A stretch of DNA of 64,000 nucleotides from Spirogloea muscicola (taxonomy: Eukaryota > Streptophyta > Zygnematophyceae > Spirogloeales > Spirogloeaceae), in the NCBI GenBank assembly GCA_009602725.1, contig WELB01000026.1:573769-637768 (forward strand). Reading direction: 5' to 3'. The notes under the pieces are model-generated. The model saw nothing but the letters and a program-made list of their open reading frames with translations. It was not told the DNA's origin and did not search any database. Positions 30,196 to 56,107 of this stretch are shown piece after piece (positions within the stretch are counted from its first letter, which is position 1; the number at the start of each line of letters is the position of its first letter). The position numbers and the translations under genes are program-made.

Positions 30196-30439
30196 TACAT
30201 ACCACAAAGACCACAAAATGGTGCCGGGAGAAAAAAGAAAGGTACACACCAGGACACGTAATGATGCAGATGGATGCTCAGTTTTCACGAGTGAGCAACA
30301 GCAAATCAGAATAGCTCGAAGCAGGAAAAGTAGCACACCGCCGAGACCCTGAGGCAGCAGCCATAATGCGGCCGGCGCGAGGGGGAAGCCATGCAGGGGA
30401 GAAGCCTTCTGCCCCCCGTCTAGGATCACCAACCGCCGG

Positions 30440-31080
30440 GGGGAAGAAACTTTCGTGTATTTGAAACAAACGAAGGCCATATGGCCAAGTACAAAGCACA
30501 TCTGAAGACCTACATAACCTTCAGCAGATTGACCCGCTCAATAACCACGGGTCAAAACATTAAGTTCGCTAATCGATGCCTGAATACTAGATGTCAGATA
30601 CGGAGCCCTTCTGCCACCAACTAGAGCTCGCCCAGCTTTCTGGTGCAAAGCATTAGCCTGAGCACGCTGCAAACAGGCCGAAACTCGCAAGAACGACAGA
30701 TATGCAGCTGGCGAGCCCATCTCAGCTGGAAACACATCTGCATGTCGTGTGTAGCCTACATTGGCCATATTCTGCAGGAGAGTGTGGAAGCGAGGACCCA
30801 GACAGCCAAAGATGTCGACTGCCGCTGGCAGAAGCTGATCGCATTGGGGTCAATCGGAGTAGTGCTGCAGCTTTCTTTGTTCAGCACCGGCCACTGCGTG
30901 ACCAGCAATGTGTGTCGATGCTGGATGCCGATGCTTATACGCCTCCGTAAGAACGACATCGACCAAGGCCCGTGGTCCTCCACCAGGTTGCACGCCCGCA
31001 ATGTCAAGTGTGCGGCGACGATGAAGTCCCTGGGCGTCCGTGGTGATAGGCACGATGTCGCTGACTTCCACGACACGGCG
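30440..31080 (-). mobile_element. Subfamily C LINE: C-terminal ORF and 3' tail
   Basis: On the minus strand 31071-30538 encodes RRRTLDIAGVQPGGGPRALV, DVVLTEAY, AEQRKLQHYSD, then PAAYLSFLRVSACLQRAQAN, ALHQKAGRALVGG and SISELNVLTRGY plus stop, with one frameshift near 30850. The 3' tail continues to about 30440 with CGTTTGTTTCAAATACACG. LDIA...ALVDVVLTEAY...KLQHY resembles a PD-(D/E)XK (restriction-like) spacing. The left arm of an inverted repeat with 31083-31402. Confidence 0.7.
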
Positions 31081-31082
31081 AC

Positions 31083-31500
31083 ACGGCGGAAGGGCTTACC
31101 AGCTGCATATCTGTCGTTCTTGCGACGACTTTCGGCCTGTTTGCAGCTTGCTCAGGCTAATGCTTTGCACCAGAAAGCTGGGCGAGCTCTAGTTGGTGGC
31201 AGAAGGGCTCCGTATCTGACATCTAGTATTCAGGCAGCGATTAGCGACCTTCGTGTTCTGACCCGTGATTATTGAGCGGGTCAATCTGCCGTAGTTTATG
31301 TAGGTCTTTAGATGTGCTTGCCTTTGTACTTGGCCATTTGGCCTTCGTTTGTTTCAAATACTCGAGATTTCCTTCCCCACGGCGGTTGGTGATCCCGGCG
31401 GCCGACGGGTGGGTGTCGCTCTTTAGCTGAAACAAGCCGGTGCTTGCCGGGGAGCTGTTTGTTTCAAATACACGAAATCTCCTGTTGTCATTAACGCGAC
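31083..31500 (+). mobile_element. Subfamily C LINE 3' end, inverted copy
   Basis: 31099-31275 encodes PAAYLSFLRRLSACLQLAQA, ALHQKAGRALVGG and AISDLRVLTRDY plus stop, matching the left copy almost residue for residue. The tail follows (ACTTGGCCATTTGGCCTTCG, then TTTGTTTCAAATACTCG), and a second tail-like piece is at 31450-31495 (TTTGTTTCAAATACACGAAA). Only the last 60 codons are duplicated, unlike the longer left arm. An unassigned 134-aa minus-strand frame (31423-31827) overlaps the outer edge. Confidence 0.7.
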
Positions 31501-32098: not shown

Positions 32099-35000
32099 CT
32101 AGCACCTTGTTTTGCTTAGACTCCTACCAACATTCTCTTGCAACTTCATGTAGGCGAGCGCGCTGAGAAGCAACAGATTCACCGGAGGGTACGAGTCCTT
32201 CGTGTGCTTGAAGGCAGTTCGCTTTTGCCAAATACGGCAAGCACGCTTTGTCCCCTTGTAGAACAAGTAGGCCGCAAGTATGGCCACCACGCCAGAGGAG
32301 AATATCAAAAAGTGGTATATCTCTTCGTCATGACTTCCTTCTTCTTGGCCACTCATAGCCAGATTGTCCCATGTGAGCAACCGCATCATCCAGCTGGGCT
32401 TTTGCAGGGTGGCACAATCTGCACCCTGGAAGAACTTATCGCAGATGTATTTATTGGTGAGCCCGTTACGGACTCCGTGGCCACTGCGCAGTCACAGCAG
32501 TAGGACACGGGCAGCCACTCTTAACGCTCTGCGCAGGCATGTGATCTCCGCGAGACGCACATGAAAGAAGCAGGGCTTGAAGCAAGCAACAATACAAACG
32601 ACTCATTATATCGCTTAAATGCAAGTGCTGGCAGCCAGCTTGAGTTGTAAGGAATGAACGTCGACCTGCAGCCATGGGGGCAGAGATAAGGTACAAGGAA
32701 CAGCCTGCTCGTTGGAGGAGAGCTTGGACGAGTCTGCATAGCCACTATCCAAAACTGGCCGCCTGGGGCAAGGCCCATGACCTCTGGTTGGCCCTTGACA
32801 GATGCCTGGCATGGTGGAAGCGAGAAATTGCCAACGGTGGTGGCTACTGCGTAGCTGTATGTGTATGTGCCTGCCTTGAGAAAGCCACTAGATACTCGAA
32901 CTGTAGACATAGCCATCTGTAGCTCGCCATACCAAGGCATAGAAAGTCCCCTGCATAGGCTTGACGTACGGGCTTGAGCTTACTTATTGCATACCCGGCT
33001 AATCGGAGTGCTCAGAGGCTCGTGAATGTAGTTATCCATTAAATTGCTGTATGAACTGAAGACATCCATCTTGCATGCTGGAAAGGAAAATGCTCTACGA
33101 AATCTATTACGAGCGACTTCCACATCTGCTGCAGATTAAGTACGACCTGTGTGCACTTACGTAGCATAGGAGCCAGGAAGGTGGTCTTGTGCGTCAGAGG
33201 CACCATAATAGGAGAAAGGTTCACAACCTCCAGGCAGCTTGTCGACCAGCTGCAGACCTTCAATATCATCGAGGGTAGTCATTTGGAGAGTGACTTGTAG
33301 ACCTGAGCCAACCTCCACCTGCAGTCATGGACGACTCCGGTGGTCGATGCACTGCTATTAGGGCGGATACCCGAGGAGAAGCAGCACATCTTGGGTGTCT
33401 GACAAGTTGAGCACCTTAAGCATGACTAAAATGCTTCAACCAGGATGGAGTATTTTCAGAGCTGCTTGAGAATTGCTGCTACTTCACTCACCCAGGTAAG
33501 ATCCTCCAAAAGGGTTTCACCTGTTGAGACATCTATCTTTTGAATTACCCGTCTTACATCCAGCCCACAGAAAAGAGGGAAGGTAATGGCGTTCAGCGGC
33601 ACATAGCTGACTGTGGTTGTGACAGAAACCTGCACTCACAGTAGGCATAAATAATGTTGAATCTGCAGGGGCTTACAAGGTGGTATGATGATGTCAGCTT
33701 GAACACTTCATCAAATAAAGCGGCACAATGATATCATACCTCTCCCTTGCCATTGGCCTGATACTTTATGCTTGGCCTGGCTGAGCCAACCTCCTGAATG
33801 GAGAAAGATCTGTGTACCAGAGGTGAGCTCCCTCCAAGCCTGTAGGAGGCCGTCAATAACTTCTTCTTCTCGACAGCAGCCTCAAGCTGAAGATCGGTAT
33901 TCACACTGCCCTTCCATCGGTCGTACTGTGCAAGTGCTATAATGGACAAGGCAGCCTCCCTAGGGCTGACGGAGTAGATTCCCAAGTTTTGGCCTCCCAA
34001 GGAGCTATATGCAGAGAGGAGATTCGCAATTTTCTCTTCTATGACTCCCGTGCCATTGAGCTGCAGCAAAAGAGTTTTATTCAGCTGGCTCTTACCTTGA
34101 GCGTTCATTCCAGCCAGGATCAAAGTCTTCCATAAGAATCATACTTAGATTGAATTTGAAATTAAGTGCACAGGACATCCTGAGTAAGCAATCACCGAAT
34201 TGACAACATACAGACGATGTTCAGAGACACTGATCAGAGAGAGCAGCACTAAGCAGCTACGCAAGGATGCTTCGAACTTGGTGGCTCCAGTGCATGACTT
34301 CAACCGAAGCACAAATAATAGATTTGCCTTGGTGAAAAGTAGTAGCGCCATGGCGTTAGCAGATCTGGAAGCAGGCTGGTTGGACCCCTCGGTAATGTAC
34401 GCAGTGCTGCCTTGGATTCTCACAGCAGCTCGCAATGATGTGATGATATTTGCAAGCTCTGAAGCCCAAAGTGATGAGTAGAAGTCGTCCAAGGACGCTG
34501 ACAAAGTAAGACCAAGTGCTGCTTTGTGAAAATTTGAGAGCTGGGACACATGCTGAAGAAGACGGCTCATGCCAAGATCTCTCCGGAGGCTTCTGTCTCT
34601 GCGCCTTCTGGACACCCAGGATGTGCCAAGGGCGAGACGCGCCTCAGCTAGGCGCGGTATCCGCATGGTGCCTTGACCTTTGTGACAGGATTCCAACCTC
34701 TGGACGAGACCCTCGTGCCACGTCCGTTGCAGGTACTCATGAAGCGACGGGCTCAGCAAGGGGCAGTTCAGATGTTCCAACAGCCTCAGCAAGAAGAGAG
34801 CAACAGCTTGAAAGCCCACATCACAAGGACTGGAGCTCCAGCAGAGCGACCCTGGACAAAGGGAGCAATTTGCAGCACTTTAAGCAAGTAACATGCTTGC
34901 CAGAAAGGGTTGTGACCATTCCAGCCACGTTGCTGCAACTCTTGCATCGCAGGACGATACTCATCACGACCAAGTTCTGCTTGTACCAACAAGAAGGCTT

Positions 35001-38000
35001 GTAAGTACGTACCACTTGCAACTAAGTCACTCAGGTTGCTGGATATTTCTTCAGGTACATCAAGCTGAAGCAGAGAACTTCCTTGCAGGTACTCCGACGT
35101 AGACAGTGAAGCTGCCAGCTTAGCAATGAGCCACTCATGGGAGATGCAATCTTGAACAGGGGCGTGTAAGCTCAAGATCTGGGCGATCGCGTCTATGGCG
35201 GGCTGCCTCCCAATCCTGATGGAAAAGAAGTTGTCAGATCAACATGGCTATGCTGCTGTAATGCATTCTCCCCAAAACATGGCGTACACCAATGCATACA
35301 CCTAATTGAACTGCTCATCTGCGTCTCAATTCAGGTGGTATTTGGGCCATGCCTACCCTGCTCGGATAATCAGCTCTCCACTGTCTGGAAGAGCTGGTGG
35401 GATCTCCACGCCTTCTTGCCGTTCCTCACCAGCTGACAATACAAAGCTGGACGAGAGCATCACTACCTCATGCAAAGCTTCCACCTGCAATTTTGCTTCG
35501 ACTTGATCCTCGACCTCGTGCCCCACAACAGCCTTGAAGTGTAAAACAGCGACACCAACAGCATGTGCAGAGAAATGGAACACGGCCTGCATGAGGGAGC
35601 CAATGGTTGTCAAATGTTGAGGACTGAAGTGATGACTAGCTAGCTAGCTCTGCAAGCATGGGCTTCTCAACACACCTGTTGAAGCCTTGCTCTGAGTCTC
35701 ATATTCACATGAAACAGTCTCTATGTGTCAACTACATTGCATGAGATACGAGTATAAGGACATACTAAAAGCATTTGTGCTTTCCGAGCAACTTCGAATG
35801 GGGCTGTGCACCTGTACAAGTACTGCAACTAATTACCTCTCCGGTTGCTGGCCCCAGGATGTACTTGGTTGTTGTAGTATTACCCACAGTGCGTACCCCG
35901 CTCGATGTCAATTCTATAGACACGTTAATACCCTTCTCTGGTGTATAGTTGTCCAATACAACATTTACTCCTGCCTCAAATACGTCTCCAAGCCTGACCA
36001 GTTTGGGGGCAGAAGCTCGAAGTGAGATTGATCTTCTCACTACCATCTGTGCCTCTGCAGAAGCAAACCTGTGGTCTTTGGTAGCTGCATAGGCATTAAT
36101 AGCTAGTGAACGCACATTGGCAGGTAGCTGGAAGGTGACAGCCACCTGCAATCAAAGAGTGAGCTATATATAGGTTATTGATTGCCAGATCGTTGATTTG
36201 TTTTTGCCTTCCAGAGCAATTGCTAGACCACATGTGTGCAGCGAATTGACGAACACTGAATATTGGTCATGCCTTGCTTACCTTGCCAAGCTTGTCAGAA
36301 ACGACCTGGGTTGCAAAGAGTAGCGTGGGATTGAAGTGTGTTCTCCTTCTGAAGAGTATAGCATCATGCTCATTCTGAACAAGTGTGGCGGCATTGGTGA
36401 TACGAGACGTCTTCACCTCTGCCCACTTGGCTAGCTTCTCACGCTTCAATATTGCATCAGCTACACTGAAAGTATCACGGCTCCTCCTCAAGTCAGCTGC
36501 TCATATTGAAACAAGGCAAGGTTGAGCTTCTGGTGACAGGTGTCTACAACTCTGTCCTTTAAGCCATACCCGTCATGTGCTGAAAGTCAAATCTATGGTG
36601 GCAGCCACTCATAACAGCCCAGGCACGCCAATCCAGTGCAGATTCACCGAATTTAGATTTCGATTCAGACCAAACCTGTCTCATCAGAAAGGCTGGAAGT
36701 AAATTGCATCAAGGCCTCGTTTACATCCATGTCAATGACTCTCTTGTGGCAGAAATCAGCTCTGAAGGGCTCCAACAGATTGTTTCCACGGTGGAGGTCT
36801 TGTATACTGTGAAAGACAAGTCCAAGTCGGAATGTAAGTTAGTATCATTCACTCCTTCCATTAAGCCTTCTTTTCATTGGGCACAGCTAGTTCCCCAGCA
36901 TCAGCAGGTTTCGATGGTTATTTCAGAGTAGACACAAATCATCAGCAATTTCAAGCAGTAGTAGGCCCTATTTGACGAGGTGACAATCTGTGTACATACA
37001 CAAGCCCAGGCTCAAGTTTCTTCAGCTGCTCAAATTTATTGACGACAGTCTGGAGGTACTTAGGCGCCAGCAGGCGTTCCTGTGTTGACACCACCAGCGC
37101 TTCATACATTTCGTTGTTGCTGACACTTGCTGTGTCAAATATCTCCTGAAGTGATGCCAAGGGGAATTGTGCCGTTTCCAAAGTGGCTTTGTCCACCGCG
37201 ACAACCATCAGTTCAACATCAGATTCTGGTAAGCCACGGCAAGATATGCCAATGTCCACTGTCACTTCAGTGTCTGGCAGAAGTGCTGCTTCAGGAACAG
37301 ACTGCGCATGCTTGCACGAGCATAAAGCTACTGGTTAATATCTGACATATCTCTGCAATTTGGAATAAGGACCTGTTCACTAGAGCGGAATTATCATGCT
37401 TCTCATTTTGCATCAAACCGTGCCTGTGCTATATGACCAGAGTCACACGGACTAACCAAGTCAACTTTCAATGCTCCATCTATCTGCCGGATGGGTAGTA
37501 TCAAGAACATGCTGTGGGTGGTGGGGGCATTGATGTCAAATGTTGCAGTTGAAGGGATAGTTGCCAATCTCTTGGATAATAGTGTGGATACTTGTCGAGG
37601 AACTGCTACAAGCTACCACATACAGGAGCAAGCACAGCTTATTAGAGATGATGTCATCTTCAAGCCAAAGGGAAGGTAAAGCAAGCCCATCTCTGCAACT
37701 CAGCCACCGATAGAAGACTGCCAGAACTTACAATTTGCAGTGCACAGCCTTTACTACACTCATCTCCAATTGGGATAGAAATTGAGGTTCTTGGAAATCC
37801 ATGCAGCTTGAAGGTCTTCATTTGACGTCCATTCGTTGGTCCCCACATTGTCAGGGCCCAAGCATCAACATATGGTGTATCGAAGGAGACCACCGCTGTG
37901 TCTCCTATACTGTATTCCTCTTTGTCCAGTATGCTTATGAAACGCCCATGCCAGGACAAAGGGCAGTCTTTCCATTGCTGCAATAGAAAGGTTGTGTGAC

Positions 38001-41000
38001 TGTAAGTGCTGCAGCAAATTAGCCAAAACATCCTCACATGTCAATGTCAAGGTGTAATACTGTCTATGCAAGACTACCCACCCACTCATTACTATGTATT
38101 CACCTGCTTGGAAGACCCTAGTTGAAGGGCACTGCATATCTCAATGCCAGATGCATCATTGAGGCAACCTCTCAGAAGATACTGGGCCACTTTGCGCATC
38201 TGGAAGCTGCACAAGGAACCTGCATGATGATGACCAGGTTTTTGTAGTTTGCTACTTGGATCCAGAGTCGTTGCATTGGTGAGGCAAGTAGAGACTTCCT
38301 TTATTTGCGACGTGCCATTTGTGCTTGTCCGATTGACTAGCAATGTCAATTTAACCACTTGTGAGTATACATCTTCAACCAGTAGGGGTCGATCTATCAA
38401 AGCTCTTTTCAAAAGCACTTGAACACCTGCATGGAGGGTAGTGAGTGAGCAATGCTGGTGATTGTGGCATCCTTGGTAACATTCCTGCATCAAACATGCA
38501 ATGAACGTCCAGACGTTCTGCATAGTCATGTGATGTCATATCATGGATTGCACCTACGGCCTCCCTCTAAGCTATGAGCAGCGGATATATAGCTTGTGTT
38601 CTCACCAAAGTGTTGCCCAGGCAAAGGAAAACTCTGTGTGAGCAGTAGTGTGAGACTGAGCTCGCTCTTGGCTATGGGTATGTACAGGTGCCTGACAATC
38701 ATCTCCCCGCTAGGGCCCACAACTTTTGCTGTCAGCCAAAGAGATTGTTGTGCGAATTCTTGGCTAGCTATATGCAGCCTGAAGACGGCCGATCCCTCTG
38801 ACGTGCAAGCAATGGAGGTGGAACCAGGGTTGGTTGAGGTCTTGCTTTCACTTTCCTTGGCAGCACAATTCTCTTCCATGAAAGTGATCAAAGGCCTGTC
38901 CTCCATTGCAGTGTCAATTTGGGAGCTAGGAGCTGTTGTCACTTCCCAACTAACTTGGATCATAGCACCCGCCACAGGTGCACCTGTGTAGGTCCTCATC
39001 TTTGCAGTGAAACTCAGACACTCTCCAGGCCTTGCCACCACTTGATCCGCAACGAGGTCAAGCGTCAGAACAGGTGCTTGCTCTCCAAGTACATGGAATT
39101 CTGTTGTAGTCAGTGTCACCAATTTATGGTCATATAGCAAGCTTGAGTCTTGCCCTGCCTGCAGCCCTGCTGTTGCTCCTGCCATGTTGCCCATGCGCTG
39201 CTCATATGCTGCAGTATGCCAGGAGGAGCCAAATCTGTCATTTTCTTGAGAATCACTACCCCTCATCTCTTCTTCAACATCTTCACGTGAATGTCGTAGC
39301 TCTTGCCACGCTGCAGGCTGCATGGAGGGCTCCATGGCCGTTGCCTCAGTTGTCATAACAAGCTCCATCATGTATGAGCCAGGCATGGTGCCAGCTGGTA
39401 TGTGGATCTCTGCTGAGAAGCTTCCATAGGTTGGATCAAGTACAACTGGGTGCTTTTTGAAGGTGGTTGATGGCCTCACTCTAACATAGAAATTGGCCGT
39501 CAAGGATGAAAGCTGCAACTGAGGATCACAACGCAGACACGTAAAAGCTCACTTGCAGAATTGCTCAGTCAAGTCGACTCCGCCGCATAGTACAATGTGA
39601 TAGCGTGCCTAGCCACAAATCTCATGGACGCTGACTTGCACCTCTATCCTGCAATTACAGATGCAAGATGCCAACAGAGGACTGCAGTCAATGCCTATCG
39701 ATGTACAGGGCCTACTCACACCAAACCAGAGGGCATTGCATTCGCACCTCAGAATGCTTCACTTGGCGCACATACCCTTTCACCATCAAGCTCTCATTTG
39801 CATAGTACATGAGTCGATCTAGAATCAGAATGGCTGTGTGACGGTCTGATTTGACATGCTGGTCAAGAAACTGGTATGGCATGGACAGTTGGATGGCCTT
39901 CATATCGTGCAGAATGAAAGCAACATAACTCGACTCGCAGCACTCCGGTAGCTTGAAAGAAGCCAGCCCCTTCTCATCTGTGCTTCTTGTGAAATTCATG
40001 TTCTTTCCTCTTTTGCGCTCCCATGGATTGTGCTGCAACCGTGATTAACTCATGGAACCATCACTGTGCTTGATGTAGGTAGATAGCATATTAAGATGAC
40101 AAGCTTAGGGATGAAGCACCTGCCTGCTCATTTACACTATGGGCATGCATCTGTATGAGTTAGAAAGCAGTTGATTATTTGCTGGTCGCTTGAGCTCACA
40201 TGGAAACATGATTGAATACATTTACTAGGTATGCATGGTCTTGACCACAGCCCAATCTCAAGCTGGGATGTACATGCTACAGCATAACGAAATGTAATGG
40301 CATAGAGCAGAAAGCATTAAGGGTAAAGAGGCACCGAGGCTTGGATGTATAAGGCAGCCAATGACCTTTATTAAGTGGACTTGCGCTTTCTTGATGGGGC
40401 TCCCTGTCTTGAGATCAACCACCCAAAAGTGAACATTCAGGTCCTCAAAGAAGTATGAAGCCCCAAGGCCTGTCTCCCCTATTGTCATCAGTCTGTGATT
40501 CACCAAAGTCTCCTCCTCTATGTCCTGCTCTAGCTTTTGCAACGTGAAAAGCCTGCACTTGGCAACTGTGAGGCTAGTCATGACATGCTTTATCCATCCT
40601 CTTTATAATGCATCTGTAATGTGGAAAGCCAGCCCAAGTAAAGCATGACTTGATTCAGTTACATGCCCTGTAGTCATTGCTCATATACTTTGGGGCCTGT
40701 GCTTGGTAGTCCCTTCAAAGTCCTGCATTGGTGACATCATGCAGCACGGGTGTTGTGAAAATACATCTACGAAGTTGTACTATGGTAGCAGCAGTAGTTG
40801 GAGGAGGAGAAGGCACCCTGAAGTCCCCAGGAGCCTACTAGCATTGACAGGTGTTATTTGCATTGCCTCCTCAGACATGAGGTCAACCTGCCAAAAGACA
40901 AACAGCCACTGTAAGAAATTTTCCAAGGCATTCTGTATAGAAAGGAGCAGATTTTAACTCATGACCTTATGGTGAAGGGTTGAGGGTGAACAACCCCTGA

Positions 41001-44000
41001 AGGCAAAGCAAAAGTAAGATGCTCAACAACAAGGTGCTCACAGAAAAGTCAGGAGGACGTCTTGAGACTCCCATTGCGCGCCACTCATGGAGGCCAGGAT
41101 TTAAGCTCCACTTGCTTAATGTGCTTACGTCACCTTCAATATTTCAAGCTCTCACAGACAGCAACCTGAGATATGTGTCAGATGATTGCTGCTCCTTGAT
41201 GCAGCTGCTACTTCTACAGTCCAAGAATTGCTCTGCAATTCTCTGCATAAACCCTGTGAAGGCAGAGTAGCAGCAACAGCGCAGCTCCTAATGGCATGAA
41301 CAGACCTTGTTGCACGAAACTCTACAGGCCTTTGGGTGAAGATGGGCCAAGTACCATCCCAACCTGTTCCCTCCTCCAACAAAGGTCCATGTAGTGCCGC
41401 TGCAAATGCCCATCACGTCAGGACTCTTCGGGTTCTGACAGCAGCCTGCCAACATCTGATGATACTATACTGGCTTGTGTAAGCAGGGGCAGTCTGGTGT
41501 TCTGCCAATCATTGTAGCAGAACAGCAATGACTTGTAATACCATAATCGCTCCAGGAGAACTGCGGATTGGGTGCATCTGTGAAGAGCAGAGATGCATTG
41601 GCCATGTTGAATATGACACTCGAACTCTCCAAAGGTTGCCCGTATCCATCTATTACAAGGCTCGTGTTCCGAATGAAGAGCATCTGTCATGCAGATCATG
41701 TGAAGATCAGCTAGGATGCAATAGCACTAATATGATGAGTTTGGTTGAGATGCAACATCAATGACACTGGTGTGGAACACACACTGGTGTATGGCATACG
41801 CTCAATGGTGATGGAGGCGTTAGACAGGAGTACTGGACAAAGATAAGCTCTTGAGGCCAATCAGACAATTCATGCTCACGTATTTGCGTCCGCATTCCAA
41901 CGGAGTGTGAATACAAATGGAGCCTGCTGATAAGCGTGACACGTTGAAAGGCAGTGGCATGCCATAAGTTCCCTTTCCTCTCAACTCTTGCACAACAAAA
42001 GCTTCCCTCAATGCCCTCCTTGTCACAGCTGTCCCTAGTCCATGTGGGAGGTTGAGCACAAGGCGACGATAGCTGATGCACTCACAACAGCAAAGTCAGC
42101 AAAATTAAACCCAATGCAGGAAAACATGTCAGCATACGTTCCACTAGTTGATGACGAGCAGTGCCACCCTCGGTATAAGATGGACGCTGACAAAAAATCA
42201 CGACAGACTGAGTTACTCCTTACAAGACTGTGTTGTAATCTCTCAGATGTCGTCGCATCTTCCTTGGAAACAAGTAATGGCTGCTGATATCAACAAGCGG
42301 CCTTGTCTCCTTAAAAAGTGGGATCAAGAATCTGCAGAGTCCTGTGATCTTGACACTGAAGGGGGTGCTCATTGGTCCTCCAAGTGGGTGAAGCTTTGCA
42401 CCCTCTGCAAATGTCAGCCTGTACTCTGACCCCCACTGTAATGCACCTCCTACAGAGCTTGATGTCAGCTGCACAATCACAACCGATTGTGCATACTGAT
42501 GGGGCCTATGGTCCTGAGAGGACCACCCATAACCGACTTCTCTCTGCATCATGCTGTATGTCTGCCATGGCGAAGCTAGCCAATCTGGCGGATCTTGCCA
42601 CCTTGTGACGTTGATTTTAAGTTGAGACGTAGCAGCCCCAGAAGTGGGCAATATCTGGCAAAAACGCAGTGGTAGGCATTGCTGCAAATGAGAGATAGTT
42701 GGGGTCCTTCCAGAGCAATTATTGTTACGTGAGTGACCAGACCTACACAATCCAGCAGCTCCGGTTACGCCATTGCAGGTGGAAGCTAGACGCCACACTT
42801 CTTGGCTGAGGGCTGAATCCATACCCTTAAAGCCTCCTGCACCCGTGCAATGTTGACAGCGCTTGAGAACGTGAGGACAAGTCTGCAGACAAGCAGCCAT
42901 TTGATTGTTAAAAAGACAGGAGAACACCTGGGAACATCCAGACCAAATGCAGCCTCTTGAGTGTGGGAGATGGACACAAACGTGATCCTTGTGAATTCAA
43001 GGGATGTCGCCGTGAGAGGGCTGCGCTTGCAATGCAGAGGCAGGATGATCTGATACCTTCCATCAGGGGGCACTTCACGAGTGGCTGACAGTTCCTCATG
43101 ATGGCCGCTGTAGCACTGCTGGCTTGACCACATGCCACCCTGCAAAAGTAGAATCTTAGCAGCATGATGCACACAATCGAGTTGCAGCTTGGCGCACGGA
43201 GGTTGAGGGCATATGTATTTATACTATACATATAGTATGTCATAAAAGTCAGTATGTCACTCAGTTTAAAAGTCTTCATGCACTGCGTACTGTGAAGTTG
43301 GTGGCACTGGTGGATAGAACAGTGGCCACACTGATATTCAAGGGCCTTGTGTGGAGTATCAGCTTGTGGTCTCACAATCCAACGGTATCCAGCCTGCAGT
43401 CACATGTTGCCTGACTATTCAGTTGCCATCGACAGTATCCAGCCTGCAGTCACATGTTGCCTGACCATTCATTGCCATCACGCATTCTAACAGAAGCTGG
43501 ATCAGGTGAGTCATGCCTAAGTGTTCAGAATTAGCAGCAATGTGGATCCGAGGCCTGAGCAGTCCACTCACTGACAACCGTCAAAAGAGGTGTAGTTACG
43601 ACAAAGATTTAGTGCGATGGTCAGATCAGGAGGCCAGGTTTCATCAGGGTCAAATCTGAACACTGAGGTAGAGACCCTGCATGATGCGGGTAAAGTGTGT
43701 CTGAGGAGAGGACAAACGTGACATTCAGTCGCAAGGTTGGAAAAGTGGCTTCATTGGTACAAAGAAATTTGGCAATCTGAACCTTCTCGATTAGCAGCAA
43801 CATACGTGCACCACACGAAGACATATGTGGACCCAACACTGCTGCTGCAAGTTGGGAAGGATGTGGCTGACCAGTGGTATTTGCCAGGAACTGGCTCAGA
43901 AAGAACAAAAGGTTGTTGACCTCCGCTTCTGCCGTGGTCGGCACCCAGTGCTAGGGCAGCCTTTGTGAAGGTCATCTGCACTCGTTAGAATTGAATTGGC

Positions 44001-44893
44001 TGCAGGCATTCGAGATGGAGCAGTTGCTGTGATAGTGTATTGCAAACTGATGCGAATCTGTCACCTCAACTGTTGAGCCGAGAGTACTAGAGAACTCCTG
44101 CTTGACATGAAAGTATGGCCATCTAATCGTAAGAGCCCCAACAAAATACACCACACCACCCTTCCAGGATAGATTGTGTGAAACACGCGCAAAGACTCAC
44201 AGTAATCGGTGTCCAGCCATCGAGTTCTGGTTGTGACATGTCGCTCATTGGTGCTGGCTCAATTGACACTATCCTGAAAGGAAGCAAGCCTGTAGCAGCA
44301 GGCAGGAGGCAGGGGGACACACTTAGGAACAGGCTAATACAGCTGCAGGTGCTTCAGCTTAGCAAAGAGCAGCACAGTGTGTAATTAACGTGCATGGGCT
44401 GGTATATCCTATACCCTTGCTTCATCTCAGCAGCATAGAAGGGCAGATGATTCTGCAGCACCACGGCACGCTCAGTCAAGTTACAAGGCAATCTGCCGAC
44501 GCAGAGCGGCTTGGGTCACTGTATTACCAGCTCCAGGACGAATGCAGCTGATGACAACTAGAAAGTACAGGCCTGCAGCAGCAGCACCACCAGCCCCTGC
44601 ATGGCCCGAGAGACGTTAGGGGAAGCTCAATTGACTTGGGCACTCGGCAGAACAGGACGAAGCTGACGTAGCGGCTCTATGGCGGCAATGCACCAGGCAG
44701 CACTACAGCAAGTGCGCAAGAGCGCGTGTGCTGTCACTGCGGAGCGTTGGTGGTCACAGTGGCATTCACTTCGCTCCTCGCTCCAAGCTCCAACGGTCAT
44801 GACGACGCAGCAGGCGACTGGAGCCAGCTGCAGTCTGGGTGCTTGCACACCGGAGCTGGCCTCCCGGGCCCAAGGCGACACCAGCATTCTCAC
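32099..44893 (-). CDS. Large alpha-2-macroglobulin-like protein with C-terminal membrane anchor
   Basis: About 25 small exons span 12.5 kb. The order of domains matches bacterial (YfaS-type) alpha-2-macroglobulins. In turn: a Cys-rich N-terminal region (44.6-43.6 kb); MG-like exons (43.17-42.8 kb, VLTFSSAVNIARVQEALRVW); MG2 at 40.04-39.71 kb (LILDRLMYYANESLMVKGYV); MG3 at 39.5-38.5 kb (VVLDPTYGSFSAEIHIPAGT); IGDTAVVSFDTPYVDAW (37.9); ELMVVAVDKA (37.2); the A2M core (36.35 RTHFNPTLLFATQVVSD, then FQLPANVRSLAINAYAATKD); an alpha-toroid (34.8-33.8 kb); the receptor-like end (32.85, AGTYTYSYAVATTVGNFSLP); and a membrane helix FLIFSSGVVAILAAYLFY near 32.3 kb, stop 32099. Where bacterial members have GCxEQ, the sequence is QDCISHEWL, so the thioester is absent. 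The 5' exon and start are unresolved. Confidence 0.8.
43385..43482. repeat. Tandem duplication, 50-bp unit
   Basis: Both units contain GTATCCAGCCTGCAGTCACA and GTTGCCTGA, then a TTGCCATC end. Unit 1 is 43385-43434, unit 2 starts at 43435. They lie in an intron of the macroglobulin-like gene. Confidence 0.85.
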
Positions 44894-45224
44894 ACGGCAG
44901 GCCGCACTCGGTGGCGAGGCTCACCCGGCCAGCCGGTGGGAGAACGACGGCGCGACGCCATGGTCGCAGCGGCGCACCGAGCTGCCCGCGGCGGCGAGCT
45001 CGCCGCCGCCGCGCCCGTGGCGGGCCGGGGCAGTCACCACGATCAGGAGGCAGGCAGAGGCCGGGTCGATCTGTGTCGTGGGAGTTGGCGAGGGGGTCTT
45101 GCCTTCTCCACGAGGGGCCTGGCGCGGAACGGGCATTGGAGGTCCTTGGTCCGTTCTTTTTGGACTGGCGTTTCAAAGCACTCCGCCCTTTTAGCATGGG
45201 GCTTCCTTTAGTGTGGTGCGCTAG

Positions 45225-45425: not shown

Positions 45426-46321
45426 GCTTACAAATGGTGGGGGGCCTGGGCACGGGAGCCCCGACGGGGCGCCCCCCCCCCACGGGGGTTTGGCTAACCG
45501 GGTGCACCCCGCCCCTTTGACCCGGTTAGCTGGGTCCAGCCGGGGGGGCGGCCGGGTGGATATACCCCACCAGCGTGTGAAGGCGGGCTTGCGGCCCCGC
45601 GGGCGGGCGGGGTCGCGACTCCCGTTGACTCCCTCCACCCGGTGAATTCCCTCCCCCATTCCGTCGACTCTGTTGCCCCAGGTCGCCGCAAGCCGTTGGC
45701 TGCCTCCATGGCAATCGCCGCTTACTTGGCTCGATCGAGTCGACTCTCCGCCCATCGATGGGCTCGCGCCGTTTCGCTTGTCGTCGAAGACACCTTCGCT
45801 TCTTGACAATCTTGAGCCGACTGCCGCGCGCCCACCCCGCTCCCCCCCCTCCTCCCCCACTTGAGGTTGCTGAGATCCTTGTCCAGAGTCGTACCTCAAG
45901 TGCACCATCTACCAATATCTACCTACTTGGATAGCGTTCACAACCGTTTTGCCCAACATAGTAAGCGCTTGCTCTTATTATCTGACACCTAGGGCACATC
46001 AGACTACCAAGCTGTCATGCTCAAAGTGCAGTGTGCATATCTAAAGTGTGTGACTTCTTTATGCATCATATGAGGCTGACGTTGCAGATTATAGGTTCCA
46101 TTTGGAGGGTTGCCCAGATGAGCGGTACAGATTACAGCACCTTTGCCATATGCAGTAAAGGTGCTGGCTTCATGAGCCGCTTGACCAATAATTCTCTACA
46201 TTCCAATACAGTTCCTCAAAGAATGTGGGCACAAGTCATGGCTTGTGGTGCCTGTGCAGCAAAAGTTTGTGTAGAATATTGCATTCCACTGACCCTCAAC
46301 TGACCACCTCTCGAAGAACCA

Positions 46322-47677
46322 TCAAAAGGCTGTGTTGGCTTTTGCTTGGGCAGCAGCATTGTCTTGCTGAGGATTGAAGTCAGGTGCTCCGCTGCTGCTG
46401 GCACTGGGGTTGGTGCCAGGTAAGTGCAACCACCCAGATAAACCACGGCCCTTCAAGGAGGCCTCAATGGCCTCCATGCGCTGCTTCAATGTCCCCACCT
46501 GCCGCTCCAGCTCTGCATCCTTGGCTTTCAATGCCTGCACTTAAGAGATGCAATGAAGTTGCTCCTCAAATCACTGAAGTTGTCGTAGTGTGTTCCGTGT
46601 CAGGTGGAAAGTATTTCTTAGTCAGGACTTGGACCTATTGTAACCACTGTTCTTCCATTGCAGCCTTGTATGAAACTTGCACTTAGCACATGATTGCGCA
46701 CACCTCGCGCTCTTGTCGGCGAGCCTCCTCTTTTCTTGACTCAGAGATGGCACTTCTTGATACTTCAAATATGACCACGCTCGTCCCAACCTGTGAGTGC
46801 ACGCCAAAGTGCAGACATATCCAGACGTGTTGAGCATGCACTGTGGAGAGTGGCTAGCAAGTGTGCTCCTCCTAGGTCAATGTTGCTTGCCCACTCCAAC
46901 ATGTTGCCCTAGCTCTCAGCAATTTGTATCCTAGGCCCTTTAGACTCTACAATTCTGCTTAAGCAAAGATGCTCTGCCATTTTTGCAAAGTGAAGCTTGC
47001 TGGGCATGGTGCAATACCGAGAAGATGATTAGCTCTCCAACTAGGTCTGCGGCAGTGGACACAGCCGCCTCCTCATTCAGGGGCTTGACTGCTATGTCGG
47101 ATGTCACGCCATAGAGCTGCCTTTGCAAGCTGACATTAAGCTTGTGATACCCCTGCAGGTGCACGACACATCAACTTACTGGAACAATAGGGCAATCATG
47201 TGTGCGCACTTGTGCAATTGCCTAGACATGAGCAGAAAGACCACCATGCCACAAGAGGATCTAAGTTGGTGCCTAGCACGCAGATACCGTGACGAGACAC
47301 AGTATGGACGCATCACTGGTCAGCGGTGCCAAGGCTCAAATAGAAGCCAGTACACAAGCACTCAAGAGGCGCTGCAGGCCCATCGAAGGTGGCCCTCTTT
47401 TCAGAGGGCACATCCCCTTGTTGCTTCAACTCTGCCTCGTTCAAAGATTGAGGTGCCAGGCCTGAATCGAGTTGCCAACTTGCAAATTTGCATGGCTGCA
47501 CTGTTGAAGATGAGTAGGAGCAAGCCAAGGGGAGGAGCCTTGACGTGCCTGCGCGAAGTTGACGATGGCTTCCCGGAACTTGGGGTGGCTAGCAGCGCGG
47601 CGCTTCACCTGCGTGGCCAGCGGCTTGCTCAGGGTCCGCAGCAACAGTGTCCCAAGCTTCGCGAAGGGCAGAATCAT
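46322..47677 (-). CDS. OPA3-like protein, mitochondrial
   Basis: Four exons: 47677-47549, 47152-47018, 46790-46704 and 46534-46322 (stop 46322-46324), all phase 0. The start MILPFAKLGTLLLRTLSKPL matches the OPA3 N-terminus used for mitochondrial targeting. ASHPKFREAIVNFAQ|GYHKLN, then SDIAVKPLNEEAAV and DLVGELIIFS|VGTSVVIFEV follow, ending in SRKEEARRQERE and a coiled coil (ELERQVGTLKQRMEAIEASL). The C-terminal 35 residues are low-complexity. OPA3 family proteins sit in mitochondrial membranes; their biochemical role is unknown. The first intron appears to use a GC donor (CAG|GCACGT), because no GT site keeps the frame. Confidence 0.88.
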
Positions 47678-48053
47678 GGTGTCGCCTTCGGCGCCGTCGC
47701 GGTAGCCGCCGACGCCGCCACTGTTACCGCCGGTGGCGCGGCTCTCATGCTCCCCTTGCTGCGTCACTTGCAGGTGCCCCGCACTTAGGCCCAGGCCTCT
47801 CTGCTCGACGTGAACCTAAGTGCCAGTGCGCTCGCACGAGCCGGCCCTACGCGAAAGCCGCTGCCGCCCCCACCGCAGGCTTCAAGTGCGCAGCCTGCTG
47901 CCACCGCAAGTGGGTTTGGCCAATCGAGGTGCCGCAAGAGGGCCAACGCCAAGCCAACGAGGGCAGAAGCAGCCCAGCGCCGGTGGCTTGAACGACGAAA
48001 GGCGTTGCGCGGGCCGAGCGCCAGAAGCACGTCGCAGGGGGTCGGGCCCGCGA

Positions 48054-48084
<31 letters not shown>

Positions 48085-49551
48085 GGGTGCGAGGCGGGGG
48101 CACGGCTGACCAGGCAGCTCGTAAGACGAACGAAATGAACGAAATGAAGACGAACGAAATGAAATGGAGACCGAGCCGAGCCAGTACACTTTTTAAAGGC
48201 CCCAAAACTAGTGACAAAGAATGTGGCAAAACACGGATATGGTCGAGGCACTGGGCTACGAGGGGCAAAACACGGCTAGTTTAAGTCGTTTGCCACTGGG
48301 CGCGGAGAGGCTCTGGAGACGGGATAGGCATCGGCCACTCCCACTGATGCCTTGTTAGACGGCCTCCCCGTTCGAAGCGGAAGGTCCCGCTTGCGCAACG
48401 GGCACGTCAAGGCAGCTGCTCCACCCAGCTGGCTGGAACGACCGCCCGACGGCTTCCCGCCCATCAGGTGGCGCCCTCCGCACGGCACCGCCTCGCCCAG
48501 GCAGACGGCCGCCTCACCTGCGGCAGCTTCGTTGTGTCCCGCGACCTCCTAACAATCTCCGAACTGGAAGTGTTCCCCAGTGCTTGCCTTTGATTACCAC
48601 TGTACTGAATGCCGGCGGATCGCCAAGCTCAGGCTGCCGGCGGAGCAAGAAAACCGGGATGACATTGGGTTGGGGAAATCCAACGGCAATGTAGCAACAA
48701 ATACTGCAAGAACAATGTCCAGGGGTCCGAGGGCGGGTGAAGAAGGCACCGTACTCTTCATCTCGGATTCCCCCTACATAGCCCGACGGACTGCAGGTCT
48801 CTCGCATTCTGGCCTTACTGGCCGTGTGGAATGTATGGCACGGACGGCTTCTCTTCAACAATCTGTTCATAGGCTGTCGGCGGTTAAATTTTGGTCTATC
48901 AATGACAATCTCATCGTTTTAGGGTTTAAGGCTTAGGCTTAGGGTTTAGGATTTAGGGTTCAGACCGACATGCTGTTGTTCCCCTGTCAATTACCCAGTA
49001 ATGCCCGTCAACAGAGCCACTGACGGGCTTTGTCCAAGCCAATGTTGTCATTTACTTTTAAGGTACTTGCAGATTTGCCCCCCGTCCTCAATACTACAAG
49101 CATGTGTTGCTCTTGTCAGGTACATACCCCGTTTCTTTGACATAGAATTCAACGGCTCTTACCGCGCCTGCAACTGGAACTGTCCACTCAACGTTCCCCA
49201 CTCAACGTTCCTTGAAGGGCAAGACTACATCAGCTAACAAAATGTTGCAGGCAGGCGACATGAACAAAAGAATGCTGTTTTACAGGCAGCAGGGTGCCTT
49301 CTCAGACAACGTCATCCTGCCATCCTCCACTTGCACAGATCATGTATACTACACAGTAGCCAACGTAAGGAGATTCATGACTTACGATCAAGGAGTCAAT
49401 GCGCGTGACCATGTTGGGATGACAAGCAAAACCTGATGACAGTATCTTTTACTCTCTATAGTAAGAATCTCCATTCAAAGATTGACCTGATAAAAACACC
49501 AGTGAACCACTGCATCATGCATTGTGTCCTTCGACAGTAGCAGCACGCTCA
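47678..49551. other. Intergenic region with GGC tract and telomere-like repeat
   Basis: Upstream of the OPA3 gene, 48055-48090 is a GGC microsatellite and 48118-48170 repeats GACGAACGAAATGAA. 48916-48961 carries degenerate TTTAGGG units (AGGGTTTAAGGCTTAGG, AGGGTTTAGG, TTTAGGG). Overlapping frames at 48514-48936 occur on both strands, with no motif I recognise. Confidence 0.5.
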
Positions 49552-52500
49552 TTAGATGCCCATAGACCTGGGAGCAAGGGGAACCCGTAAAGACGCTGGA
49601 GGCCTTGTATACTTGGTTGATGGTGGCAATGGATAGGCATTCTTGGCGCCACTGCTTGTGTCAAAGGTGAGCCAAAGCGAGGCATCAATGAAAGCATAGG
49701 AGATCAAGTTGCTGAGTTCTGCAGGTTTGTGATATTTTCCGATCATGTTGTTCACGTTGGCAGCTCCAGGCCCCCAGCACGCATGCTGCGTGCCAATGAA
49801 AGGAGAAGGGGATCAGCAGTGGCCTGTTCTATCTTGCAAATAGCTGTAATGGTGAAGTCAATGCTGCACTGGATAGAAGACCAGACTAGCAACACCAGTG
49901 CTTGATAATGTGAACACCCGGAAAAGCTGGACGCATGCTTACTAGTGACAATCACTGCCTCAGCACCATATCAGTAGACACACCAACCTTGATCATCGTT
50001 GACGACTTTGCCTGTTTGACTCGCAAACCAACTGTTCCCCAGGTTCCTAGAGTGATCGTGTCATCTAAAAACGAGTAGGCAAAGATGATGCGTGCTGCTG
50101 CACCCCATGCCCTCCCAAGAAGTGCCTGCAAGTAGAGCAAGCATGGTCCACGGTGTGTGTGTGTCATGCAACCAATGACAGGCATGGCAGATAATTGTCA
50201 CATGTCTAAGGAAGACCTTGATTGCACAGCTTCTCGGGCACGCTATGATTCCCTCATCATGTGTGGCGCCTTGCCTGTTGCTGTCTGCTAGCTGGCTTGT
50301 TTACGTGCAAAGACCTTCTATCAAACAACAGCAGGGAATACAAATCTCTCGATAGTCGTGGAGAAGCCTGCGAGACTCCTGTGACATTGCAACGGAGGAA
50401 GACGAAGCCTGTCGCTTGTGAGAGGTCACTCCGAGCTTGTGCAGTGTAGGCACCCTGTGCTCGGGCATACAGCGTGCATTCCTGCAATATGTACTGCACA
50501 CATATCAGAGTGAAGGCAGAAATACACATGTAGTGCACACATGCCTGACTAGATGCAGAAGCTTAAAGCTCTCAGGCTCAATAGTGTGTTCTGTAGAGGC
50601 TCTTCGGAAGTTCTCTGCAACTGTCTGTACATGCGCTACGACCTTCATCAAGTTCTCAAGTGAGGCCTACTAGGCGTCCACTGAAAACCATCACGGTGCA
50701 GCCATACAGTGCAGTGAATAGCGGAGCTAGTACAAATTGTGCAGCTTGGCATTGGAGATGCGGTTAGCGGACAGAAATATACTCACGTGCAGCATAAGTG
50801 CAGCCCCCAGCATACTTCTAAGAACGTCAAACAGGCTTCTAGAAGACTTACTGTTGCCTACTCAGAGGCAGCCAACTTAAGTCCATAGCCTCAGCAGTAC
50901 CAGCCAAGCACATCAAGCTTGTTGGCTGTTCACATAGTACATACGAACCTCGTATATACTCGTGCCATTTCCAAAGATGAAGTCGACAGAGCCCGCGAAG
51001 TAACAATATCTGAAGTAATGACGCCCCTGGCCTCCAGGAGAACACAAATGCATCCGTAAGCTAGATGGTTGTCAAGCCGCTAAGGGACACGGCCTGTTGT
51101 GCGCCTGATGCAGGTACCACTATTTGTAAGATACCACATGCTGTCATGCATTGTCATGGAATGGAGGTCTTGAGCTGCTCACAACAGAGGGTGCACGTGA
51201 CTAGGCAGGAGGCCAGCTTCTGTTCTTGGCATGCACGCTTGCCTTCTGCAGCATCTTGTCAAACACAAATCGGCACTACTTCATCATTCTATCCACTTAA
51301 CGCTCTTACAAGTGGACTGCAAGTCGACACATACTTGATGATCACTGCAAGTGTCTTGCCATCCCAGGAAACGGCAATTGTAGAATGCAGCCATATCTCC
51401 ACTGATGCGAAAGGCCAACGCTTGATGGGTTCTATCAGAGGGTGGTGCTGGACGGTGATCGTTCTTCATCAACATAAAGTAACAATGAGTAGTTTCAGTA
51501 TCCTGTCTGTCAGAAAGGCTGTCTGAAAGACGAGAATAAAGCGGTACTGAGCACTAGTATTCCAGTGAAGCACTAATTCCTATCACTACAGCCATGCCAA
51601 CAGTGGTGAAGCTGTTGCGATATCTTGATCAACAACAATTTGAGTGAGAGGTATATCATCCTCAGGCCAACCTGGAATGTTATTTGATAAGCAGTAAAAT
51701 GAGCTGCATCAACACACACTGAACAGGACAAAAAGGTCCCAAGTACTTTGCCACTTGCGATGGGCATTCCGGCCCAGTCACTGTAGACAATAGTAGTGGT
51801 AAAAGCGTCCGATCCCCGCAAAGTTATGAAAGGCTTACTACTCGGTATGTGCACCTTCTCGCTGCGGAGCACAAAGCCAAACCGTTAGCCAGTCCTGCAT
51901 GTATTGTTAAACACATGCTGCGAGAACCTGGAGAACAGCCACTTTGGAGAAACCTCGTCAAGTCACATCGTGCACAAATTCGAAGTCGAAGATGAGGCAA
52001 TGACTTTATTGTGCATCCATTCAAGGTCTGGAGATGCTGTAGTTGCTACACGTGCTCTCGATAAACTAGGCGTCAATCTGTTCTCACCGGTACATGCCTG
52101 GCTTGAGGACGATCACCACCTCCGAGGGGCTGTTAGCAGGGACTGCATTGATGGCTTCTTGTACGCTTGTGTGTGTTCCTGATCCGTCCTTTGCCACTAC
52201 ATACTGTGCACCGGTTCTGACTGTTTGAGTAGGTTGTGTCTTGTGATGTCGGTCAGCTTCCACGTTGGGAGGGTGGTGGCCCCGCGTCACAGCATCGGCG
52301 CCACCAGCGGCAGCAAAGAGCACGTAGAGTATAACGAGCAAGCTGCTCATGCAGCCGGTGAACCAACGGTTGCCACACACGTCCTTGCTGAACGTCGCAG
52401 ACAAGCCCAAATGCATGTGCATGCTGAAGAAGCTGGTCCAGTCACAAGCAGGCTCAGCCAACGACCTCAACACCCGACGCTTCCACCTCCAGTGCTCGGA

Positions 52501-52563
52501 TCGGGCAACAACGGCGTGGTTCACCAAAAGCGGCTTCCACCGTGGGCAAGCGTCAATATCCAC
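49552..52563 (-). CDS. Pectin methylesterase 2 (family CE8), likely membrane-anchored or signal-anchored
   Basis: Seven exons in the same positions as pectinesterase 1: 52563-52088, 51861-51672, 51463-51335, 51026-50949, 50481-50368, 50125-49988 and 49785-49552. Lengths of the three central exons (129, 78, 114) are identical in both genes. The N-terminus has about 65 residues before a hydrophobic segment ([16 protein letters not shown]), so it is either a signal anchor or the real start is the in-frame Met just before it. Motifs: [55 protein letters not shown] and LGRAWG, so both catalytic Asp, the Gln and the Arg are kept. The fifth intron begins GC (CAG|GCTTCT) at the position where pectinesterase 1 has GTGACG. 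No pro-domain. Same wall role as its paralogue. Confidence 0.92.
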
Positions 52564-52654
52564 CCTTCAGGGGTAGCCCGCGAGGCGATAGTAAAGGCCT
52601 CGCTGGCAGCGCCGTGCACGCGGTGATGCCTCGGCGCAGCTCTGGAGGGCGGCA

Positions 52655-52745
52655 GTGAGAAGTGAGCTCTTCCAAAGGGCGCTGGGGGCTGTGAGAAGCC
52701 AGCCCAAAAGGAGTGCACGAGGTCCAAAAGGCCAGAAGGTGCCAT
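52655..52745 (-). mobile_element. Subfamily A LINE tail fragment upstream of pectinesterase 2
   Basis: The minus strand reads GGCCTTTTGGACCTCGTGCA, then CCTTTTGGGCTGGCTTCTCA and CAGCCCCCAGCGCCC. The hairpin is intact. It starts about 90 bases 5' of the pectinesterase 2 ATG. Confidence 0.65.
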
Positions 52746-53130
52746 AATTAGTGGAGTTCCCATCATGATCAGCCGCCTTGGCGCTGTCCCCCCTCTTCCC
52801 CTGGCTCCCGATGGGCCGGTCCCAATCGGGCCCCGGGCCAGGCAAGCTGTCGCAGGTGGTACTTGACCTCATGTCTGACTTTTGCTCAGCGCAACCCGGG
52901 TCCATGCCGGCTGACTCGACACCGCCAGCGTTGACCGGGCGTCCGGCGCGGCACCATGTGGGCGATTCGGTGGCCGATGCTGCTGCCACCACGCGGCACC
53001 GTTGATTTCCAGGGGATGCTCCCCCCGCCGTGCAGGTGCGCGAGTGCCCCCTAGCGCGTGCCAGCTTAGGGCCCAACCGAAGTCGCCTCCTGAGGTCTCG
53101 AGGGGTGCATATGAGTTGCGTGCTTTTACA

Positions 53131-53310
53131 TCAAGCGAGCAGCTGGGCTGTTCTATGGCGACGACGCGCGTCAACCAGTCGGGCCAGATGCTGGATGAGG
53201 GAGGACCATCTCATACCGTAGCCACCATAAGTATCCCTTCGAGTTTTGGACTTCGAATATTTTATTCCTTTAATCTGGGCTGGCCACTCACAGCCATCGC
53301 CCTCTACTGA
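53131..53310. mobile_element. LINE ORF fragment (-) joined to an A tail (+)
   Basis: 53131-53245 on the minus strand encodes YGGYGMRWSSLIQHLARLVD then ARRRHRTAQLLA, equivalent to YGDYGTKWSSLLHRLALHVD in the copy at 55.4 kb. 53255-53310 on the plus strand holds CTGGGCTGGCCACTCACAGC followed by CATCGCCCTCTACTG. The two pieces are in opposite orientation. 53320-54050 shows only a direct repeat of AGATGCGATCTAG (53477-53506) and no gene. Confidence 0.6.
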
Positions 53311-54059
53311 TGTATTCTTCTTTCTCTTTGTACTGTAAATCACGGCTATGTTGGCAGGCTCTGCCCTCGTGCGTGATGATATGAGGACCAACTGTGCCAG
53401 GGGCATATTCAGCAGGAAGCTTGGTCCACCAAATGCAGCTCCTTGTAAATTTCCTCAGCCTCAACTGAATTTGAGAGATGCGATCTAGCTAGATGCGATC
53501 TAGCGACAAGGAGTCGTGCGCGAATGCTAGCGGCTCGTTGACGTTTGCATCCAATCATGATAGACAACGACATTTCTCTGAGATCGTGCTCAGTGACCAA
53601 CATCAGAGAGACCGTCTGAAGATAGGCTGCTAGTCAGTCGGGCCCACGTTTCGAACAAGCTCAACTGTGTAGCTAAGTTTTGGCGTCGCAAGCAACAAAG
53701 GCAAGAGCGTAGACTCATGCAGTGATGCAGTGCCCTCGATCACAAGACAACGACGTTGGTGCAGAATCAACGACTTCCTGACAAGAAGTCTGACATAATC
53801 AGGCCTCAGACCACAGCCTTGACCAACTGAATCTGAAGGTTGGTCTTCTACTTAGGTCTTTGGTTCTATGGGTTGTGAGTTATAACATGCAGCATGACAA
53901 TGCTCACGGCAAATCCTCACGAATTTTCACGCGGAGCAAGCGAAGGTTCACTAGCTGCTGCTCCTGCCCATGGCTCAACGCCCCTCCTAAAGCGTGGCGC
54001 TGGTGCAGGGTGGATCTCAGCAAGATGACGAAACTTGCCAAGCGGACTGCTTGAAGAAC

Positions 54060-54475
54060 TGACGCTTCCAGTAGAGGGCGGTGGCTGTGAGAGGCCAGCC
54101 CAGGAAAAAGAATGAACAAACTTCGAAGGGGCCAGAGAAAGCTCTAAAGCCCACGGTGATTCAAGTATCCACGAAGCACTCAGTAAATTCTGTTGAGCAG
54201 CCGCAGGTCGGAGACAATAGTCTCCCAGTAGCGGGCCCCCTCGCCAGAGCCAGAGGCTGCAGCCAATGCGCGACCAGCACGCAGATGCAACGCGCGTGCC
54301 ATTGACCGCTGCAGCGAGACTGACAGGCGCATGCGATACACCTGAGCGAGAGATCCTGCTGCGTTTAGGTCTGCGGATGTCAGCCTCCAACAGGCTCTGC
54401 TCGGCCTGCTGGACCACCCGGCACTCCATACAACGCCTGCCGCCCTCCTCCAATTGACACGCCCCACAGGCAAGG
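54060..54475 (-). mobile_element. Subfamily A LINE: C-terminus and hairpin tail, inverted
   Basis: On the minus strand 54370-54183 encodes VYRMRLSVSLQRSMARALHL then RAGRALAAASGS and VSDLRLLNRIY plus stop. The tail to 54060 keeps GGCCCCTTCGAAGTTTGTTC, ATTCTTTTTCCTGGGCTGGC and CTCTCACAGCC. Head to head with the plus-strand copy beginning at 54454. Confidence 0.75.
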
Positions 54476-55755: not shown

Positions 55756-56107
55756 CCCCCCTGCGTTGAAGTCAGGCTGCTCCCCGTGGACTGCTTGGCT
55801 TGGGCCCCCTTCCTACTTAGTACCCGTCTCAGCGATATCTAACGTTGTTAGTCGCGCAAGGATTCAGCCGACAGCTGAGCTGATTGGCCTTCTCTGGACT
55901 AATTATTACACCCACGAATCTATCCGACGATGAAGCATAGGCTCCAGCGTTTTGTTCCGCAGTCGCCTCGCCACCGCTTCTGCTGCCGCCCCTCTCCTGG
56001 GTGGTCGAGTTGCCCTTTCTGCTGGGCTTCCCTCGTTGCACGTAGAATGCCTACAGGCGTTGTGCACGGGCCAGGATTCAGCCGACGGTCAAGCTGATAG
56101 GCCCTTC

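Follow-up and report, generated by a model that had tools for sequence, protein, structure and literature searches.

Animals use alpha-2-macroglobulin (A2M) proteins as protease traps in immunity, and bacteria have them too. In bacterial Type I A2Ms, among them YfhM of Escherichia coli and Sa-A2M of Salmonella, macroglobulin (MG) domains are followed by the A2M domain, a thioester domain and a C-terminal bMG10 domain. YfhM has CLEQ at the thioester site, and its N terminus carries LAGC, which we take to be a lipobox. Complement C5 is a secreted vertebrate complement factor. It belongs to the A2M superfamily, has no thioester and is cited as an exception (PMC9156758). The Type II protein MagD of Pseudomonas aeruginosa also lacks CXEQ and keeps the bait; it is described as periplasmic and working with MagA, MagB and MagF from one operon, and a MagD construct (MagD-TB) held TEV protease non-covalently after bait cleavage (PMC5764988). 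In tsetse TEP4/MCR, which has a transmembrane domain, an LDLa module replaces the thioester motif. The domains described for the insect proteins are A2M_N, A2M_comp, A2M_recep and LDLa, and the Drosophila homologue was reported in septate junctions and in innate immunity (PMC5969219). Here we describe a gene of the zygnematophycean alga Spirogloea muscicola, found in a 64,000-nucleotide stretch of contig WELB01000026.1 (contig 26; assembly GCA_009602725.1, positions 573,769 to 637,768; "the window", to which coordinates refer unless another contig is named), whose predicted product is a membrane-anchored A2M that has lost its thioester.

The gene lies on the minus strand of the window as a single long multi-exon unit running from a candidate ATG at 44961 to a stop at 32099. 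A scan of the surveyed genome (153 Mb) with the Pfam A2M model (PF00207) matched four places: the window, two sites on contig 18 about 20 kb apart (C18a and C18b) and one on contig 11 (C11). The bMG10 matches coincided with these four places, and a protein search with the thioester-domain exons recovered the same four copies and no further ones among the best candidates scored. The copies could be aligned over ~13.8 kb at 88–92% DNA identity, introns included. Exon models came from a script that scored splice signals, codon usage and the way substitutions are distributed across the four copies, and were finalised manually. In the window copy, 16 core exons (40032 to 32099) spliced into one continuous open frame. 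A 17th exon (36806–36676) and a shift of one acceptor from 36465 to 36496 were added after this 16-exon model, on the grounds that every copy conserves the splice sites and only C18a interrupts the frame, with a single stop in the extra exon. The product modelled from 40887 onward has 1778 residues; the first version had 1724.

Membership of the A2M family was examined with Pfam on the first spliced product and with profiles built from the four copies. Both bMG10 (E = 1.4e-11, 45.1 bits against a cut-off of 26.2; exons 33629–33492, 33318–33161 and 32950–32666) and A2M (E = 1.1e-8, 35.2 bits against a cut-off of 21; exon 36145–35897) exceeded their thresholds. Matches below cut-off were obtained for MG2 (1.5e-6; first part in exon 40032–39748), for bMG3 (0.0038; exon 40552–40366, flanked by AG and GT splice sites in each of the four copies) and for the bait-domain model A2M_BRD (4.4e-4). 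The last of these starts in the MG exons that lead up to and enter the bait domain (38426–38104, 37977–37732 and 37612–37457, also placed by profile alignment) and ends in the bait-domain exon 37301–37000. The end of MG2 and the next MG domain fall in a large exon (39518–38606) that is a single frame in all four copies with length differences in multiples of three. For comparison, prokaryotic A2Ms were collected through a DNA pattern for PYGCxEQT (at least 120 stretches); 80 of 119 open frames, those with more than 1300 residues, were kept as the bacterial profile, in which the thioester is present by construction. Profile–profile alignment (hhalign) joined the four copies to these 80 proteins over 1253 columns (residues 43–1622; probability 99.9, E = 2.2e-33, identity 16%), and the order of MG series, bait, CUB/thioester domain and C-terminal MG domain is that of the bacterial proteins. 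The same alignment placed the CUB-like exon between the A2M and thioester domains (35586–35357) and the exon holding the end of the thioester domain and the second CUB-like half (34060–33740). Individual bacterial proteins scored weakly against the four-copy profile, the best (L130, from a bin called proteobacterium) reaching 6.4e-17, and YfhM alone, as one sequence, gave E = 0.0074 with a score below zero. We conclude that the gene product almost certainly belongs to the A2M family and is of the bacterial type.

An initial annotation of this DNA had proposed an A2M-like protein with a series of MG2/MG3, A2M core, alpha-toroid and receptor-like end. The family assignment held, A2M profile hits being found above cut-off, and so did the MG order and the A2M core. 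The putative toroid was aligned, in order, by hhalign only, its own Pfam model giving no match, and the receptor-like end has to be replaced, as the C-terminal domain matches bacterial bMG10 and no metazoan receptor domain. Searches of other kinds added little: genome-wide, exon by exon, the Pfam thioester-domain (TED), bait and MG2 models gave no matches, MG2 and bait scoring better on the spliced protein; phmmer with 843 residues against PDB chains returned a single chance match (1.5); and a single-protein scan of the genome contigs gave 26 pattern matches and no relative. The CAGE complex, found in some green algae and described as having two beta-sandwich domains with A2M as best structural match (PMC12485934), was also considered. 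The comparison was with CAGE as described, and the bMG10 and A2M matches made the A2M reading sufficient.

The thioester domain begins in exon 35215–35013, which reads HAPVQDCISHEWLIAKL. Its cysteine codon (35148–35146) is retained and the Glu-Gln is absent: PVQDCISHE stands against bacterial PYGCxEQ, and three copies have DCISHE at the site, the fourth NCISHE. In the alignment around the toroid start, CISH fell on the bacterial C-x-E-Q with middling per-column confidence (digits 5–6 of 9). C-x-E-Q was absent from the minus strand of the four aligned copies (~14 kb each) in all three frames, and from the four spliced models (part from 40887 on); it could have escaped only if an intron outside the models divides the motif. 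The initial annotation had placed a lost thioester, with Cys kept and Gln gone, near 35.15 kb; both the site and the loss were confirmed, and no missed exon carrying GCxEQ came to light apart from that one remaining gap. Since C-x-E-Q is absent from all four copies, its loss is most simply older than the copy split. The simplest history would be a single loss before the copies separated, after which the domain retained a job. On this sequence, thioester-based covalent trapping is excluded by the missing Cys-Gln pair. The earlier claim that covalent trapping is impossible without a thioester therefore stands for thioester-based capture and is weaker for protease trapping as such: MagD holds a protease without a thioester (PMC5764988), and therefore thioester loss alone does not rule out trapping. 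Covalent capture by other chemistry, through the DCISHE cysteine alone or by disulphide exchange, might be suggested by the invariance of this cysteine in all four copies within the most constrained exon. We consider it very unlikely, as the acceptor Gln is missing from every copy, most residues around the cysteine are just as invariant, and further cysteines in the next exon could pair with it.

Selection was assessed from the ratio of nonsynonymous to synonymous substitution rates (dN/dS), pooled over six pairs of copies with bootstrap intervals. The copies are closely related and include the probably broken C18a, so that the intervals are rough and the result for the thioester domain alone is clear. 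Against an overall dN/dS of 0.51 (region scored first), the thioester-domain exons gave 0.21 (bootstrap 0.12–0.31) vs 0.58 for the remaining scored part; separately, exon 35215–35013 gave 0.18 and exon 34851–34313 gave 0.22, the 3' end of the latter being ambiguous (donors weighed at 34312, 34211 and 34195). When blocks of thioester-domain length were slid along the gene, the six with the lowest dN began at or beside this domain. Intermediate values were obtained for A2M (0.35), the thioester-domain end with the second CUB-like half (0.41), the MG exons at 38426–37457 (0.42), the linker with EGF-like module and membrane helix (0.48), bMG10 (0.49) and exon 37301–37000 (0.59), and higher ones for the first CUB-like exon (0.70), the added bait exon 36806–36676 (0.72, 0.29–3.23), the large MG exon (0.78) and the bait-side exon 36496–36282 (0.86, 0.45–1.63). 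Intron divergence (0.07–0.19) was similar to dS. The former thioester domain is clearly the most constrained part of the gene and, on this evidence, still functional. The thioester-free A2M thereby offers a testable case of what such a domain does once its chemistry is gone, this being its best-protected part.

These data also bear on whether a duplicated family is being lost, its members being relaxed or decaying genes with little function. The overall dN/dS of 0.51 would fit such a history, as would C18a, which has stops within two exons ahead of the tail, and the window copy, which has an altered tail and has lost two EGF-like cysteines (below). Set against this, in every exon but the last the copies differ in length by multiples of three, the other three copies stay open up to the tail, and the thioester-domain exons show clear purifying selection, so the open copies are unlike decaying genes. 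We regard general decay as improbable. C18a is probably a pseudogene, a broken copy next to an open one: it lies at contig 18:401001–415200 (L005, L006) beside its tandem neighbour C18b, which stays open.

The C-terminal membrane anchor proposed by the initial annotation was recovered as the hydropathy peak of the part modelled from 40887 on, in all four copies. It corresponds to the helix IYHFLIFSSGVVAILAAYL at 32320–32264 (coordinates counted from the exon). An EGF-like module that had been overlooked stands ahead of it, the order after bMG10 being EGF-like stretch, membrane helix and basic segment. The module (32682–32414) spans the intron 32665–32484. The siblings carry the EGF-like cysteines, and in C11, the copy scored, EGF_2 exceeded its cut-off (2.8e-6). 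The window copy has R and Y in place of two of them (32483–32414), and EGF_2 reached only 0.43 there. The tail (32263–32099), basic close to the membrane, exceeds those of the siblings, which reach a stop sooner; aligned DNA and translations trace this to a 2-base difference. With a basic segment following the helix, the N-terminal side is expected outside. Together with the signal-peptide-like start described below, this makes a type I membrane topology likely, our certainty being lowered somewhat because the N-terminal exons are provisional. Such an anchor, together with introns and the absent thioester, distinguishes the algal protein from YfhM, and it is also unlike the secreted C5. Its putative start looks like an ordinary signal peptide, YfhM having a presumed lipobox.

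The beginning of the gene was moved from 44893, as first annotated, to the candidate ATG at 44961, which is kept in all four copies. In each copy the candidate first coding exon (44961–44925; MASRRRSPTGWP...) retains its start codon and a GT donor, and it joins the next exon in frame. The second exon (44596–44528), open and with AG and GT sites in all copies, contains the hydrophobic core of the putative signal peptide (AGGAAAAGLYFLVVISCI), and frame and splice sites of the third (44289–44201; LLPFRIVSIEPAP...) are likewise conserved in the four. Joined, the three exons begin MASRRRSPTGWPGAGGAAAAGLYFLVVISCI, which by eye reads as an ordinary signal peptide, the start itself being putative. Probable further N-terminal exons lie between 43676 and 40817. 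These are script candidates whose number, boundaries and join to the first three exons are provisional, and the region holds several conserved frames (e.g. 42026–41862 and 41680–41603). No significant homology to bacterial N-terminal domains was found for the N-terminal pieces. A second signal-peptide-like start, MPLGAALLLLLCLHRVYAE at 41297 on the minus strand, also has an open frame in each of the four copies; the core gene may use it as an alternative start, or it may be fortuitous.

Compared by description, insect Mcr/TEP4 shares with the algal protein the A2M family, the absence of the thioester motif and a transmembrane domain of its own (PMC5969219), and MagD shares the absence of CXEQ and a putative bait, the algal bait match being below cut-off. 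MagD is periplasmic with operon-encoded partners (PMC5764988), an arrangement that does not apply to the algal gene, which is eukaryotic and encodes its own membrane helix. By this analogy, the algal protein is a combination of features of the two. The likeness to the insect protein raises the alternative that the gene encodes an adhesion or junction protein at the surface or wall, in which the A2M scaffold would serve as a rigid extracellular module, as in Mcr, and the bait would be defunct. The pairing of membrane helix and absent thioester matches tsetse TEP4/MCR (PMC5969219), the EGF-like module is intact in C11, and the strongest conservation is in the thioester domain rather than in the bait. 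However, the small module is EGF-like and follows bMG10, LDLa not being among the Pfam matches of the spliced product; similarity to the bait domain persists, if only below cut-off; and two EGF-like cysteines are gone from the window copy. An adhesive role is a possibility of some weight, which we rate as less likely than not.

Our preferred reading, held tentatively and at somewhat less than an even chance, is a surface trap or sensor that is triggered at the bait and acts non-covalently; a role in adhesion or in the wall ranks behind it. The reading as a whole, a secreted type I membrane A2M without thioester that would work non-covalently at the cell surface, appears about evenly balanced. 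What the sequence shows directly is the family, the order of the domains, the missing thioester of every copy, the constraint on the former thioester domain and the membrane helix. From these we infer use of the signal peptide, surface location, bait cleavage and trapping or sensing, as follows. The protein would comprise signal peptide, MG domains, bait, A2M/MG7, CUB-like parts, thioester domain, bMG10, EGF-like stalk, helix and tail. A foreign or wall protease would cut the exposed, fast-evolving bait segment, upon which the protein would change shape and either hold the protease physically or signal via contact surfaces of the conserved thioester domain. The bait-side exon, with its high dN/dS and the loss of 33 bases, in frame, from C18b, fits what is expected of a bait. 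If so, the finding bears on how algae handle proteases at the cell surface. A bolder version, which we think unlikely, is a plant-lineage protease sensor: a bacterial-type macroglobulin that discarded its thioester and made of the domain a conserved binding face reporting bait cleavage across the membrane, a complement-like counterpart evolved apart from animals.

Several observations weigh against the trap or sensor. The Pfam TED model (PF07678) matches neither the genome nor the spliced protein, and AlphaFold on the toroid exon (four near-identical rows) gave a mean pLDDT (predicted local distance difference test) of only 35.8. The interval of the bait-side exon is wide, and the first CUB-like and the large MG exons evolve about as freely, so that rate does not set the bait apart. 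Human A2ML1, a monomer, is described as inhibiting only via covalent binding (PMC9156758). The join of the first exons to the core is provisional, and the start at 41297 is a rival signal-like start.

RuBisCO small-subunit exons at four places (contigs 39, 8, 42 and 441) in the same intron-bearing genome agree with the initial assignment of this DNA to the green lineage, and a nuclear small-subunit gene read from such exons resembles streptophyte sequences. A 2014 survey of 21 peptidase-inhibitor families gave Mamiellophyceae as the sole Viridiplantae entry for the A2M family (I39); it confirmed the family in M. pusilla but did not in poplar, and the five algae named are all chlorophytes, so that streptophyte algae fell outside it (PMC4189545). 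The Micromonas I39 protein and the Spirogloea product are both green-lineage A2Ms. A literature search for macroglobulin and streptophyte, whose coverage left out most subscription journals, found no paper. A2M in green algae is already known; what looks new is the membrane-anchored, EGF-bearing, thioester-free, four-copy architecture. In a tree of 73 rows (69 of the 80 long bacterial proteins, YfhM and three copies; C18a and animal sequences were left out), the algal branch was long (2.54 changes/column) and fell outside the main Pseudomonadota clade, at an open node near L130 and two Verrucomicrobiota. We draw no origin from this tree; since it is without animal sequences, it does not decide between bacterial transfer and inheritance.

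Beyond the gene, contig 11:498707–508004, adjoining the contig 11 copy, is collinear with window positions 46000–56000 at 82–93% identity. Since this collinearity continues past the gene, at least these two copies seem to sit in a duplicated piece of chromosome, for which polyploidy is a possible cause. Within the block, a 1.38-kb repeat (window 54371–55754) recurs elsewhere in at least about 40 matches, each some 900 bases or longer and 87–93% identical, and looks like a mobile element. It is missing from the collinear stretch of contig 11 (about 507765–507780), so it seemingly entered the window after the segment was duplicated. Directly downstream of the gene lies a large, imperfect inverted repeat (window 30423–31395), with 194-nt arms at 30494–30687 and 31126–31319 (94% complementary) and an outer pair of 74-nt arms (92%).

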